From positions 1-53,244 of the forward strand of contig JAIRQN010000057.1 of NCBI GenBank assembly GCA_031256445.1: DNA of 53,244 bases, given 5' to 3'. The position numbers were made by a program, and so were the translations under genes. Position 1 is the first letter of the stretch, and the number at the start of each line of letters is the position of its first letter. The DNA comes from Treponema sp. GTDB taxonomy: Bacteria; Spirochaetota; Spirochaetia; Treponematales; Breznakiellaceae. The notes beneath the pieces were generated by a model. The model worked only from the letters and a program-made list of their open reading frames with translations, was not told the origin of the DNA and ran no database searches. Below, one piece after another: positions 44,118 through 51,772 of the stretch.

Positions 44118-44318
44118 ATGGAATATGATGAATGGATTGCGGCAGGAAATGGTGTTCGTAAGGGTGAATCATTGGAAGATGCTATAGGAAGAACAGTAAA
44201 TAGTATGTATGATTTCCCATTAAATTGCCCAAGTTGCGGAAGTCAAGACCTTGAATGTCCATTTAATAACAATCATTGGCGCTGTGAAAGCTGCGGACAC
44301 AGTTGGTATCATCGGTAA
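44118..44318 (+). CDS. Small zinc-ribbon protein
   Basis: 66 residues with a typical treble-clef/zinc-ribbon at the C-terminus: CPSCGSQDLECPFNNNHWRC then ESCGHSW, giving CX2C...CX2C. A strong AAAAGGAG precedes the ATG, the same RBS wording (AAGGAGATTTTTATG) as at 47785 and 53132. It may bind nucleic acid or protein; nothing more can be said. Part of the cassette array. Confidence 0.65.
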   Translation: MEYDEWIAAGNGVRKGESLEDAIGRTVNSMYDFPLNCPSCGSQDLECPFNNNHWRCESCGHSWYHR

Positions 44319-45104: not shown

Positions 45105-45124
45105 ACAGCCGTCAGGCTTTAAAC
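45105..45124 (+). repeat. Recurrent hairpin AGCC-GTCA-GGCT-TTAAAC
   Basis: A four-base-pair hairpin AGCC/GGCT (45107-45110, 45115-45118) is followed by TTTAAAC and 16 bases later by the ATG of a Cys-rich gene. The same unit recurs at 46485, 46720, 47054 and 48565 with variable loop bases. It resembles a recombination site or a translation-control leader. Confidence 0.6.
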
Positions 45125-45140: not shown

Positions 45141-45326
45141 ATGAACAAACCGCGCTCTGTACCGGGATCATGTCAATTTTATGATCACACAATCGATAAA
45201 TGTTATCTGTCAGAAACAACACCGTCATCAGGCACTCGTGATCAGAAATGCAAGTCTGATTCGAAATGTAAGAATTGCGGTAACTATGAAGCATGGGAAA
45301 GCGGCAGTAATTACAGGGGGAAGTAA
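45141..45326 (+). CDS. 61-residue Cys-rich protein (copy A)
   Basis: Cysteines at 11, 21, 37, 43 and 46 (RSVPGSCQFYDHTIDKCYLS, SSGTRDQKCKSDSKCKNCGN); the C-terminus is EAWESGSNYRGK. Nearly identical from residue 20 onward to the gene at 46521, while the first 20 residues differ more. AAGGAGGAG stands eight bases upstream. Possibly a metal-binding or disulfide peptide, or a modification substrate. I do not recognise the family. A truncated copy occurs at 43437. Confidence 0.65.
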   Translation: MNKPRSVPGSCQFYDHTIDKCYLSETTPSSGTRDQKCKSDSKCKNCGNYEAWESGSNYRGK

Positions 45327-47000: not shown

Positions 47001-47073
47001 AAAAATCGCATTTTTCTGCGTTTTTTATACTGTCCGTTGGGCAGAGAAAAATTATAGCCGATGGGCTTTAAAC
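47001..47073 (+). repeat. 73-base three-hairpin repeat (copy 1)
   Basis: Three stems in a row: CGCA/TGCG (47007-47010, 47017-47020) followed by six T, CTGTCC-GTT-GGGCAG (47030-47044), and the recurrent AGCC/GGCT (47056-47067). The copy at 48511 differs by GGACAG in place of GGGCAG, which keeps the pairing via a wobble. The first stem could terminate the upstream gene. Confidence 0.6.
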
Positions 47074-48510: not shown

Positions 48511-48586
48511 GAAAATCGCAGTTATCTGCGTTTTTATACTGTCCGTTGGACAGGATAAAAAGTAATAGCCACGGCTGGCTTTAAAA
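48511..48586 (+). repeat. Three-hairpin repeat (copy 2), upstream of the RiPP locus
   Basis: CGCA/TGCG followed by TTTTT (48517-48535), CTGTCC-GTT-GGACAG (48539-48553) and AGCC-ACGGCT-GGCT (48567-48580). It separates the TPR gene from the precursor-peptide gene. The first stem with its T run is a plausible terminator of the TPR gene. Confidence 0.6.
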
Positions 48587-48599
48587 GCTAAGGATAATT

Positions 48600-48776
48600 A
48601 TGAAACTTTTTAATCTAGGGAGTAGTGAGTTGGAATTTTTTAGACAGGAATTAAAAGCAAATTCTCCGTCTGCCAGAGAATTCAATGCACATTCATCCAA
48701 TTGTCAAGTCTGTCATTCAGTATGCGCTACAGGTTGCGGGGCAAATTGCAAAGGGCGAAACAGCAGCAGTAATTAA
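48600..48776 (+). CDS. CXXX-repeat RiPP precursor peptide
   Basis: 58 residues. Leader-like residues 1-34 (MKLFNLGSSELEFFRQELKA and on) have charged helical character. The C-terminal part has cysteines at 35, 38, 42, 46 and 50: CQVC then HSV-C-ATG-C-GAN-C-KGR, i.e. four CXXX units CHSV CATG CGAN CKGR, and ends RNSSSN. TAAGG precedes the ATG. The stop (48774-48776) is directly followed by the maturase ATG. This matches targets of the radical SAM peptide maturases annotated as the CXXX-repeat target family. The probable fate, thioether or other Cys-centred crosslinks, is inference. Confidence 0.8.
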   Translation: MKLFNLGSSELEFFRQELKANSPSAREFNAHSSNCQVCHSVCATGCGANCKGRNSSSN

Positions 48777-49931
48777 ATGGCGATAGAGGCAATTAGCGCT
48801 TCCAGAAAAACTATTATGCTTACAATAACTGAGACATGTAATCTTGATTGTGTCTATTGTTATGAACATAATAAGAAATCCAGGGAAATGTCCAGAGAAT
48901 TAATTTTAAATATCGTTGAAAATGCGTTAAAAGAAAGTTCAACTGCCATGGAAATATCATTTCATGGCGGTGAACCTTTTTTAAAATTTGATTTAATGCG
49001 TGAAACCGCGGAATATTTCTGGAAAAAATATAATCCTGAGAATAAATATGTTTTCTTTGTGACAACAAACGGAACATTATTAACTGATGAAATTAAAAAA
49101 TGGCTTTCAGAACATAAAGAACATTTCTGGTGCGGTCTTAGTTTTGACGGCACAGAAGATATGCAAAATAAAAATCGTTCTAACTCCGCAAAAGATGTTG
49201 ATTTGGAATTTTTTGCCAAAACATGGCCGGAACAGGGCGTTAAAATGACTGTTTCTGACTTAACCTTATCTGATCTTGCGGCAGGCACGATTTTTTTACA
49301 TAATAAAGGTTTCGATGTTAATAATAACCTTGCCTACGGTATAGACTGGAACAATAACGCCATTATAACGGTTTTTTCTGAACAATTGGAAATACTTATG
49401 GAATTCTATCTTGATAATCCTGATATCAAACCCTCATCAATATTATCAATGAATATCGAATGGTTTATTAAAGATAGCAGTATAAAACAAGAAAGATTCT
49501 GTGGTGCAGGCAAACAAATGAAATGTTTCGATACAAACGGGAAAGAATATCCATGTCATTTTTTCATGGATATGAACTTTAATAAAAATATACCGAAAAT
49601 ATCAAACATGGAAATGCTTCATAGTGATGATTGTTTACAGGATCCCTTTTGTAAAGACTGTGAAATTAGGTTAGTTTGTCCAACATGTTATGGTTATAAT
49701 TACGTAACTACCGGTAATCCAATAAAAAGAGACAGAAATCATTGTATTTTAGCGAAAATTCAAGCTGTAGCTTGCGCAATTTTTGCTTTGCGCAGAATTA
49801 AAAGATACGGGAAATTAACAATAAAAGGCGAAGAAATTCCAATTGGAAACGCGCTTCATGGTATTGATAGTGTTTTAAATAACGAATTTTTCTTAAATGA
49901 TGAAAGATTACGGGATTTTAAGCTGATATAA
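48777..49931 (+). CDS. Radical SAM/SPASM peptide maturase
   Basis: 384 residues. Radical SAM cluster TETCNLDCVYCYEH (C21, C25, C28), FHGGEPFLKFDL, SFDGTEDMQNKNRS, then SPASM cysteines: RFCGAGKQMKCFDTNGKEYPC, C near 290 (DDCLQDPFCKDCEIRLVCPTC), and C near 327/334. This is the layout of RiPP thioether/crosslink maturases such as the CXXX-repeat family. It follows the precursor without a spacer and is followed after nine bases by a second radical SAM gene. It is expected to modify the precursor's CXXX repeats. No RBS of its own is visible, so translational coupling is likely. Confidence 0.85.
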   Translation: MAIEAISASRKTIMLTITETCNLDCVYCYEHNKKSREMSRELILNIVENALKESSTAMEISFHGGEPFLKFDLMRETAEYFWKKYNPENKYVFFVTTNGTLLTDEIKKWLSEHKEHFWCGLSFDGTEDMQNKNRSNSAKDVDLEFFAKTWPEQGVKMTVSDLTLSDLAAGTIFLHNKGFDVNNNLAYGIDWNNNAIITVFSEQLEILMEFYLDNPDIKPSSILSMNIEWFIKDSSIKQERFCGAGKQMKCFDTNGKEYPCHFFMDMNFNKNIPKISNMEMLHSDDCLQDPFCKDCEIRLVCPTCYGYNYVTTGNPIKRDRNHCILAKIQAVACAIFALRRIKRYGKLTIKGEEIPIGNALHGIDSVLNNEFFLNDERLRDFKLI

Positions 49932-49940
49932 TATGTAACA

Positions 49941-51518
49941 ATGAAGCCGACAAGAAAAATATTATTTGTAATTGTTTGTTTAGATCCTTCTCCATTCAAA
50001 ACAGCGGAAAATTTTTTTATAAGAGCATTGCCTTTTGGCGTATTAGGCATTATTTCTTATTGTAAAAAACATGTATATAATTATAATATTGATTTTTCAA
50101 TATTGGAAATTTACATAAATGATGAAAGTATAGAAAATAAATTAATGGAGCGTGTAAATGAATTTAAGCCTGATATTGTTGCCTTCTCGGTGATGTTTAA
50201 TCATTTCTGTCCTGAAATATTCAGGTTATCTAAAGTAATAAAAGAAAATAAAAAAGAAATATTTACAATAGCGGGCGGAATAGGTATTTCCGATACTTAT
50301 GATGAATTTTTTAACTATACAGAAAATATTGATGCAATTTGCTTTAGCGAGGGTGAATTACCTGTTTCTGCATTATTAAACGCGGATAATTTATTTTATA
50401 TGGCTGAAACTCATAAATCATGGCTTACGCCAGGAACGGTGAAAAATGGCAAAAAACCTGCTTATGATCTCCTGGATAATATTAATGAAATACCGCCTTT
50501 TTATCATTTGATTAATATAAAAGATTATGTTTTGGAAACCATATCACGCAAAAATGGCAATACTATAAAAATGTTCCCAATGGTTACTACAAGAGGTTGT
50601 CCTTATAGCTGTAATTTTTGTTCCGCGTCATATAGATCAGGCAAGAAAGTCAGATCATTTTCCGCAGATAGAATAATTTCTGATATAAATAATATAATAA
50701 AATATATAGATATTGATATGATTTCATTCAGAGATGATCAATTTTTGCTGGATAAAAATAGAGCTATTACCATTCTTAAATATATTGCTGAAATTGGAAA
50801 AAGCGCATCTCCGGAAGGAGGTATAAATATATCCTTAATGGACGAAGAAATAGCATATTGGTTTAAACAAACAAATGTCACTCAAGTCAGCTTACCTGTA
50901 GAATCAGGCTCAGAACGCATGTTAAAAGAAATTATTAAAAAACCGCTTGATCTTAAACAGGTTAAACCTGTTGTTGATCTTTTAAGAAAATATGATATTG
51001 TAACAACTGGCAATTTTATTTGCGGCATGCCTGGTGAAACTCCTGAAGATCGTAAGCTGACAGAGGAATTTATCGAAGATACCGGATTCAACGGTGTGAC
51101 ATTTTTTGTCGCTACTCCGCTAAAGGGAACCAGATTATATGATGAATGCATTAAGTCTGGCTATATTAATAATACTAATATTTTTGATAAAAAGTCATTT
51201 TTTAATGGATATATTACAGCCCCATACATTGAGCCTGTAAAAATTAATAAATATTCTTATTACCTTAATTTAAAGTATAATTTTATTAAAAATTATGATT
51301 ATCTTCATGGTAATTTTGAAAAAGCGGAAATATTTTTTAAAAGAGTATCTGAATTGGATCCCAATCACGCAATTAGCCATTATTATTTGGCAAAAATATA
51401 TAATGAATTTGGCAATAAAGAATTAAAAGATAAATATATTAATATGTATAAAAAAATAATTAAAACTGATAAATTATGGAGAGAATATGCTTTAGCATTT
51501 GATTTAGAAATTGATTGA
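49941..51518 (+). CDS. Cobalamin-type radical SAM protein with C-terminal TPR
   Basis: 525 residues. Residues 1-150 have a B12-binding-like fold (RALPFGVLGIISYC, PDIVAFSVMFNHFCPEIF, TIAGGIGIS); the usual DxHxxG is not seen, so cofactor binding is uncertain. The radical SAM core carries TRGCPYSCNFCSASYRSG (about 220-227), FRDDQFLLDK and VSLPVESGSERMLKEIIKKP. Residues 430-525 hold TPR-like helices (NFEKAEIFFKRVSELDPNHA). Candidate reactions are methylation, epimerisation or another radical step on the peptide. The location directly behind the maturase makes a shared substrate likely, but it has no start-near RBS and could act independently. Confidence 0.8.
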   Translation: MKPTRKILFVIVCLDPSPFKTAENFFIRALPFGVLGIISYCKKHVYNYNIDFSILEIYINDESIENKLMERVNEFKPDIVAFSVMFNHFCPEIFRLSKVIKENKKEIFTIAGGIGISDTYDEFFNYTENIDAICFSEGELPVSALLNADNLFYMAETHKSWLTPGTVKNGKKPAYDLLDNINEIPPFYHLINIKDYVLETISRKNGNTIKMFPMVTTRGCPYSCNFCSASYRSGKKVRSFSADRIISDINNIIKYIDIDMISFRDDQFLLDKNRAITILKYIAEIGKSASPEGGINISLMDEEIAYWFKQTNVTQVSLPVESGSERMLKEIIKKPLDLKQVKPVVDLLRKYDIVTTGNFICGMPGETPEDRKLTEEFIEDTGFNGVTFFVATPLKGTRLYDECIKSGYINNTNIFDKKSFFNGYITAPYIEPVKINKYSYYLNLKYNFIKNYDYLHGNFEKAEIFFKRVSELDPNHAISHYYLAKIYNEFGNKELKDKYINMYKKIIKTDKLWREYALAFDLEID

Positions 51519-51530
51519 GGTGTGTTTTAT

Positions 51531-51772
51531 ATGGGAGACTTAAAAAAAACTATAATAAAAATTATTGGGCAAAGCTTTTACATTTTTGGAATATAATGGA
51601 GAAGAAGATCATGATGAACTGAAAAGGGAACTATTGGAAAAATTTCTGGAAACTGGTCTGGATGATTATTAGAAGAATCAATTTTGATAAATATAACGGA
51701 AAAGTGCTTCTAATGAAAGGATGGACACCTAAAGATGAAATATTCGACAGTGGCATTATCGACATCGTTTGA
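51531..51772 (+). pseudogene. Decayed small genes between the RiPP locus and the second CsgG gene
   Basis: An ATG at 51531 reads MGDLKKTIIKIIGQSFYIFG and stops. In the next frame a longer piece reads AFTFLEYNGEEDHDELKREL...FLETGLDDY (to 51672). A third frame reads MIIRRINFDKYNGKVLLMKG...DSGIIDIV (51662-51772). They look like one or two small cassette genes split by frameshifts. The rest of 51519-51988 shows only the promoter listed separately. Confidence 0.4.

Follow-up and report, generated by a model that had tools for sequence, protein, structure and literature searches.

The window analysed here is a stretch of 53,244 nucleotides of DNA from Treponema sp., a gut-type spirochaete, and the locus of interest in it consists of three plus-strand open reading frames of 58, 384 and 525 residues, at the positions where a first-pass annotation had placed them. 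The features in and directly before the locus are these:

48517..48535, plus strand: intrinsic-terminator-like hairpin CGCAG-TTAT-CTGCG with a T run, between the upstream TPR gene and the RiPP unit
48563..48599, plus strand: precursor-gene leader, AGCC-ACGG-CTGGCTTTAAAAGC...AAGGA, which is the AGCCGAYGGGCTTTAAAC array leader in a diverged copy
48600..48776, plus strand: precursor peptide, 58 residues, putative leader at about residues 1-33, core CQVCHSVCATGCGANCKGRNSSSN; homolog at L022:4781-4957 (52% identity)
48777..49931, plus strand: radical SAM/SPASM peptide maturase, 384 residues, without an RRE domain; closest fold CteB
49941..51518, plus strand: B12-binding radical SAM protein with a TPR-like C-terminal tail, 525 residues; possible accessory role

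The 58-residue frame, with five cysteines in four CXXX units, had been described as lying base-to-base before the maturase, and it does: its last base is 48776, and the maturase ATG follows the precursor stop with 0 nt between. The gap from the maturase stop to the start of the B12 gene, which had been said to follow at once, is 9 nt. There is no AGCCGAYGGGCTTTAAAC-type leader before the maturase or the B12 gene, and no internal leader motif among the three genes. The stop-to-start contact and the 9-nt gap suggest that the three genes are apparently one translationally coupled unit. The unit is taken to begin downstream of 48517-48535 because of the terminator-like hairpin with its T run there, of which a near-identical copy is located at 47002-47025. 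The ORFs of 35.8-53 kb that were scanned with family models include no transporter or protease, in agreement with what the first-pass annotation had reported; the surroundings of the RiPP unit contain neither a protease nor an exporter nor an immunity gene, and the whole genome has no C39 peptidase domain. Behind the B12 gene, at 51515-51772 of the window, there are small-gene fragments with a frameshifted look (MGKAFTFLEYNGEEDHDELKRELLEKFLETGLDDY / RRINFDKYNGKVLLMKGWTPKDEIFDSGIIDIV).

The precursor is translated as MKLFNLGSSELEFFRQELKANSPSAREFNAHSSNCQVCHSVCATGCGANCKGRNSSSN, 58 residues, with a leader/core boundary that probably falls at about residue 33. Its five cysteines have the pattern C-x2-C-x3-C-x3-C-x3-C, in units CQV-CHSV-CATG-CGAN-CKGR, and the core contains no Asp or Glu and a single Thr. 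The motif C...C...C...C, counted over all open frames, occurs twice in the window, once in the precursor ORF, against an expectation of 0.03 per window derived from 100 Markov-resampled windows.

The maturase is found at E <= 1e-20 in 10 of 200 genomes of the family, the window's own counted, and in none of the other genomes of the same genus. The sister locus is in G002, a genome of a different genus in the same family, where precursor and maturase are adjacent and in the same order. The two maturases are 73% identical, with a dN of 0.17 and a dS of 1.67; the two precursors are 52% identical with five of five cysteines kept, their synonymous sites being saturated. More relatives of the maturase occur in Bacteroides, Proteiniphilum, other Bacteroidales, Sporomusa, Oscillospiraceae and more distant spirochaetes. 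To count precursors beside them, 22 relatives were drawn from Spirochaetota, Bacteroidota and Bacillota, and an ORF of 30-130 residues containing CX3CX3C was looked for no more than 700 bp from the maturase and on its strand, with the other windows of the same loci as background. Such an ORF is present at 14 of the 22 relative loci and in 2 of 918 background windows (0.2%). Among the loci missed by this pairing test, L029 has its CXXX precursor inside a longer frame, and in the group of Bacteroides, Proteiniphilum and L021 the core that follows the maturase, CGCSGDCGSNWM, is shorter. The first-pass annotation had named as refuting its reading the lack of a homologous pair in related genomes or of protein-level conservation of the precursor; neither applies, as the G002 locus and the 14 of 22 against background show.

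The spacing of the cysteines is the recognizable feature of these cores. It runs 2,3,3,3 in the window and in G002, 2,3,3,3,3 in G025 and 2,3,3,3,3,3 in Sporomusa, and in the long cores it is a 2 followed by seven 3s (G122), sixteen 3s (G672/G700) or seventeen 3s (G254). The resulting signature, C-x2-C-(x3-C)n, is common to Spirochaetota, Bacillota and Bacteroidota and reaches 18 or 19 cysteines. The precursors of the relatives have weak matches to TIGR04117 in 11 cases, TIGR04114 in 9 and TIGR04118 in 3, and the window precursor matches none of the CXXX target models. The locus holds a conserved RiPP precursor-maturase pair of the CXXX kind, outside the curated families.

Several neighborhoods of the relatives contain genes worth recording. 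In Bacteroidales, at L013:7197-8984 and L014:3356-7921, M18 or M42 aminopeptidase genes adjoin CXXX-type precursors and are candidate leader peptidases; L014 also has a second SPASM enzyme. A UvrA-like ABC ATPase, identified by a UvrA model match for L028 and by a similar N-terminus for L016, is encoded immediately after the maturase at L028:1958-4090 and L016:7141-7650, possibly for self-resistance or export. Seven viral contigs of IMG/VR (L067, L068, L075, L089, L115, L117 and L128) encode CXXX-repeat proteins within 3 kb of a maturase-related radical SAM gene, and the faecal phage record MT836223.1 has a 34% identical maturase. In G140, at L046:1-330, there is an internally deleted relic from the same precursor-maturase subfamily directly before a GNAT-like gene, a homolog of which lies in G002 at L022:8001-8540, 1.9 kb behind the maturase.

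The reading of the second gene as a radical SAM/SPASM maturase agrees with its Pfam match to Radical_SAM (3.6e-13), with its CX3CX2C motif (C21, C25 and C28) and with its conserved SPASM-type cysteines. In the alignment of relatives, C21, C25, C28, C242, C260, C292, C301, C304 and C323 are invariant in 19 sequences, so that most positions of the SPASM-type set are invariant; together with the precursor conserved alongside, this is what characterizes a radical SAM/SPASM peptide maturase in general. Where it belongs among the curated families is another matter. The best NCBIfam score is to PapB (NF047865), 134.7 bits against a cut-off of 340 with nearly the whole enzyme covered, followed by the nif11 maturase model at 112.7 bits, the QhpD type at 106.1 bits, the CXXX-repeat maturase TIGR04115 at 104.1 bits against a cut-off of 350, and the SCIFF maturase TIGR03974 at 74 of 425 bits; the enzyme passes the cut-off of none of these models. 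For the 19 relatives the lowest E-values, 5.9e-44 (PapB) and 1.6e-42 (CXXX), indicate scores far under the cut-offs as well. The first-pass annotation had judged the locus to fit the known CXXX-repeat target class, and this is borne out in that it is a precursor-maturase RiPP whose relatives' precursors resemble the CXXX models, but not for the maturase, which stays at 104 of 350 bits. No description or characterized member of this maturase family was found in the literature searched.

Structure comparison leads to CteB. A profile made from the maturase alignment has CteB as its top PDB match (E = 4.4e-42); the alignment starts at CteB residue 90, past the RRE of that protein. The AlphaFold2 model, built from 19 sequences with a pLDDT of 84.6, finds CteB as the first PDB match by Foldseek with E = 3.7e-15 and a TM score of 0.68. 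The radical SAM barrel begins at residue 11 and the RRE is absent.

The locus is embedded in a run of short plus-strand genes from about 43.4 to 52 kb, which encode TPR, Sel1 and zinc-ribbon-like proteins and a 61-residue cysteine family. That this array is AT-rich is confirmed by a GC content of 27-38% at 43-52 kb, against about 40-55% at 8-43 kb. Several array genes are preceded by AGCCGAYGGGCTTTAAAC and an AAGGAG-type site, at 45107, 46487, 46722 and 47056; these four copies of the leader have no counterpart elsewhere in the genome within two mismatches, and a comparison of the array and its leaders with Rfam gives no match to a known RNA. The 61-residue Cys-rich genes are duplicated, at 45141 and 46521, and this gene family is present in 14 of the 200 genomes from the bacterial family, among which is G002, on the contig that carries the RiPP pair. 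On that contig, at L022:2600-4343, a CFI-box-CTERM domain forms the C-terminus of the array's BspA-like and Sel1 proteins. Arrays of a similar kind that lack the RiPP occur in the same genus, and in other genomes of the family their content has changed. An integron was considered for the array and rejected: the genome yields no integron integrase above the cut-off, and the integrase model gives a signal in all 14 control genomes too.

In the maturase tree, the window and G002 sequences join each other (100/100) apart from a clade with most other maturases of the same bacterial family, in the half of the tree to which the Bacteroidota sequences belong. This placement fits patchy inheritance and transfer. 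From its setting, the RiPP unit has the look of cargo in an array of small genes that is shared between genomes and reshuffled. The earlier suggestion of horizontal acquisition gains support to that extent, the patchy distribution, low GC and cassette-like setting all being consistent with it.

The third gene was described earlier as a B12-type radical SAM protein with a TPR tail, and the domain matches concur: B12-binding PF02310 at 3.7e-12 (46.6 bits against a cut-off of 32.1) and Radical_SAM PF04055 at 1.4e-18 (68 bits against 29.5), both above the Pfam cut-offs, which makes it a B12-dependent radical SAM protein in general terms, and a TPR_17 match at C-terminal residues 465-493 that is weak and under its cut-off. 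The best curated model is the Sden_1168 P-methyltransferase at 147 of 575 bits, and the RiPP C-methyltransferase TIGR03975 gives 52.8 bits, short of its cut-off of 281.85. Its AlphaFold model, from three sequences, is poor (pLDDT 57.8) and was left out of the fold searches. The genome has two cobalamin riboswitches and, because of these, can be said to handle B12.

The search for homologs of the B12 enzyme covered three overlapping samples: 200 genomes from the family, 394 from the order and 393 from the phylum. At E <= 1e-40 the only one is in G140, at 36% identity, where it is a solitary gene on the opposite strand, next to one recognized by eye as fliI-like. The enzyme is absent at the G002 sister locus and at all other intact relatives examined; viral contigs yield no relatives of it and plasmids one remote match. 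The idea that it is a conserved partner of the pair is rejected on this distribution. The 15-kb contig of G140 does contain both this nearest homolog and, 6 kb away, the deleted relic of this precursor-maturase subfamily, a co-location that is suggestive, no more. With the enzyme missing at the sister locus and the other intact relatives, its action on this peptide is conjectural, and we regard it as locus-specific and of uncertain role.

We consider it probable that the locus is a minimal RiPP operon in which the SPASM enzyme puts thioether crosslinks into the cysteine core, with the B12 enzyme optional. The 58-residue peptide would be made with approximately residues 1-33 as its leader. The RRE-less SPASM enzyme would then join the cysteines of the C-x2-C-(x3-C)3 core as thioethers to nearby non-acidic residues, the candidate acceptors being Thr, Ser, Asn, Ala, Val or a neighbor's alpha-carbon, and each crosslink would cost 2 H. 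Leader cleavage and export would depend on enzymes encoded elsewhere. The basis for thioether chemistry is the enzyme's kin and the periodicity of the cysteines. Freyrasin-type maturases act on Cys-x3-Asp motifs, where they join Cys to Asp/Glu (PMC9413430), and SCIFF maturases link Cys to Thr (PMC8172795). A PapB-type linkage is unlikely here because the core lacks Asp and Glu, and with one Thr in it we infer thioethers to other residues or to alpha-carbons. Counted against this reading are that single Thr, Thr being the acceptor in CteA, the lack of protease, exporter and immunity genes nearby, the curated cut-offs, which the maturase does not reach, and the absence of the B12 enzyme from the sister locus and the other intact relatives.

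Two alternatives to this reading concern the third gene. In one, the SPASM enzyme makes the RiPP alone, and the gene for the B12 protein is array cargo that came to lie behind the maturase without being related to it; the array around it shuffles short cargo genes between genomes, other relatives do without the enzyme, and the TPR-like tail resembles the habit of an array with many TPR genes, but the 9-nt gap and the lack of a leader motif between maturase and B12 gene speak for a closer tie, and we hold the matter to be evenly poised. The other makes the B12 protein obligate, methylating or otherwise altering the crosslinked peptide, to give a methylated thioether peptide. It is favored by the same 9 nt and by the missing leader motif, whereas upstream array genes have one, as well as by complete B12 and radical SAM domains in a genome with cobalamin riboswitches and by the G140 contig with its homolog and pair relic. 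The enzyme is nonetheless missing at G002 despite a pair 73% and 52% identical, the G140 homolog is 6 kb off on the other strand among housekeeping genes, and the score to the RiPP C-methyltransferase model is 52.8 of 282 bits, all of which leaves obligate partnership possible while falling short of probable. Within the minimal operon that we prefer, the B12 protein would be an optional tailoring enzyme at this one locus, and C-methyltransferase would be the most plausible activity if the same peptide is its substrate; such optional C-methylation we put forward tentatively. The full pathway, in which two radical enzymes, an RRE-less SPASM enzyme and a B12 radical SAM methyltransferase with a TPR tail, would give a C-methylated, multiply thioether-bridged CXXX peptide with non-acidic acceptors, is doubtful.

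SPASM maturases perform many reactions (reviewed e.g. in PMC8326336). With that diversity, and with the literature search having turned up no characterized member of this family, the enzyme might run another radical reaction on the CXXX core, such as epimerization, a C-C or C-N crosslink, or conversion of Cys to another residue. We think this unlikely, as the best match in both sequence and fold is the thioether synthase CteB, and the periodic cysteines are the sole constant feature of the cores. A last alternative takes the 58-residue ORF not for a RiPP precursor but for one more small Cys-rich protein of the array that binds zinc or haem. It has in its favor the zinc-ribbon-like array genes at 44118 and (by eye) 46759 and a CQVCH resembling the CXXCH haem motif, with a cytochrome match at chance level, but is very improbable, since the sister has CQHCE and does not keep CXXCH, relatives beside the same enzyme extend C-x2-C-(x3-C)n up to 18 or 19 cysteines, and the pairing is 14 of 22 against 0.2% background.

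These findings point to a family of about 20 RRE-less radical SAM/SPASM maturases that falls outside all the curated maturase families tested. It occurs in Spirochaetota, Bacillota and Bacteroidota, Bacteroides and Proteiniphilum being among the last, and is mostly tied to cores that have 4 to 19 cysteines and the form C-x2-C-(x3-C)n or one close to it. The short pairs are easily co-expressed, which makes CXXX-type crosslink chemistry and RRE-free leader recognition directly testable, and the window locus adds a possible second radical modification.

Among known systems, the CXXX-repeat RiPPs (maturase TIGR04115; targets TIGR04114, TIGR04117 and TIGR04118) share with the window a short precursor with a Cys every fourth residue and an adjoining radical SAM maturase, four CXXX units abutting the maturase here. 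They differ in that the window maturase scores 104 of 350 bits, with none of 19 relatives near the cut-off judging by best E-value, and in that the window precursor, with a first cysteine spacing of 2, matches no target model. The PapB/freyrasin ranthipeptide maturases (NF047865) are the best-scoring curated family and also act on a Cys-rich substrate, but the score is 135 of 340 bits, and freyrasin has Cys-x3-Asp/Glu, whereas both acidic residues are missing from the window core. The CteB/SCIFF maturase (thermocellin; PDB ID: 5WGG, 5WHY), a thioether synthase with a SPASM domain, comes first in both the structural and the profile comparison; the N-terminal RRE of CteB (PMC8172795) is missing from the window maturase, which scores 74 of 425 bits to TIGR03974 beside a precursor that is not a six-Cys SCIFF peptide. 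Finally, B12 radical SAM proteins of the Sden_1168/HpnJ/BchE type have the same order of B12-binding and then radical SAM domains as the window B12 enzyme, from which the latter is set apart by its 147 bits against a cut-off of 575 and by its TPR-like tail.
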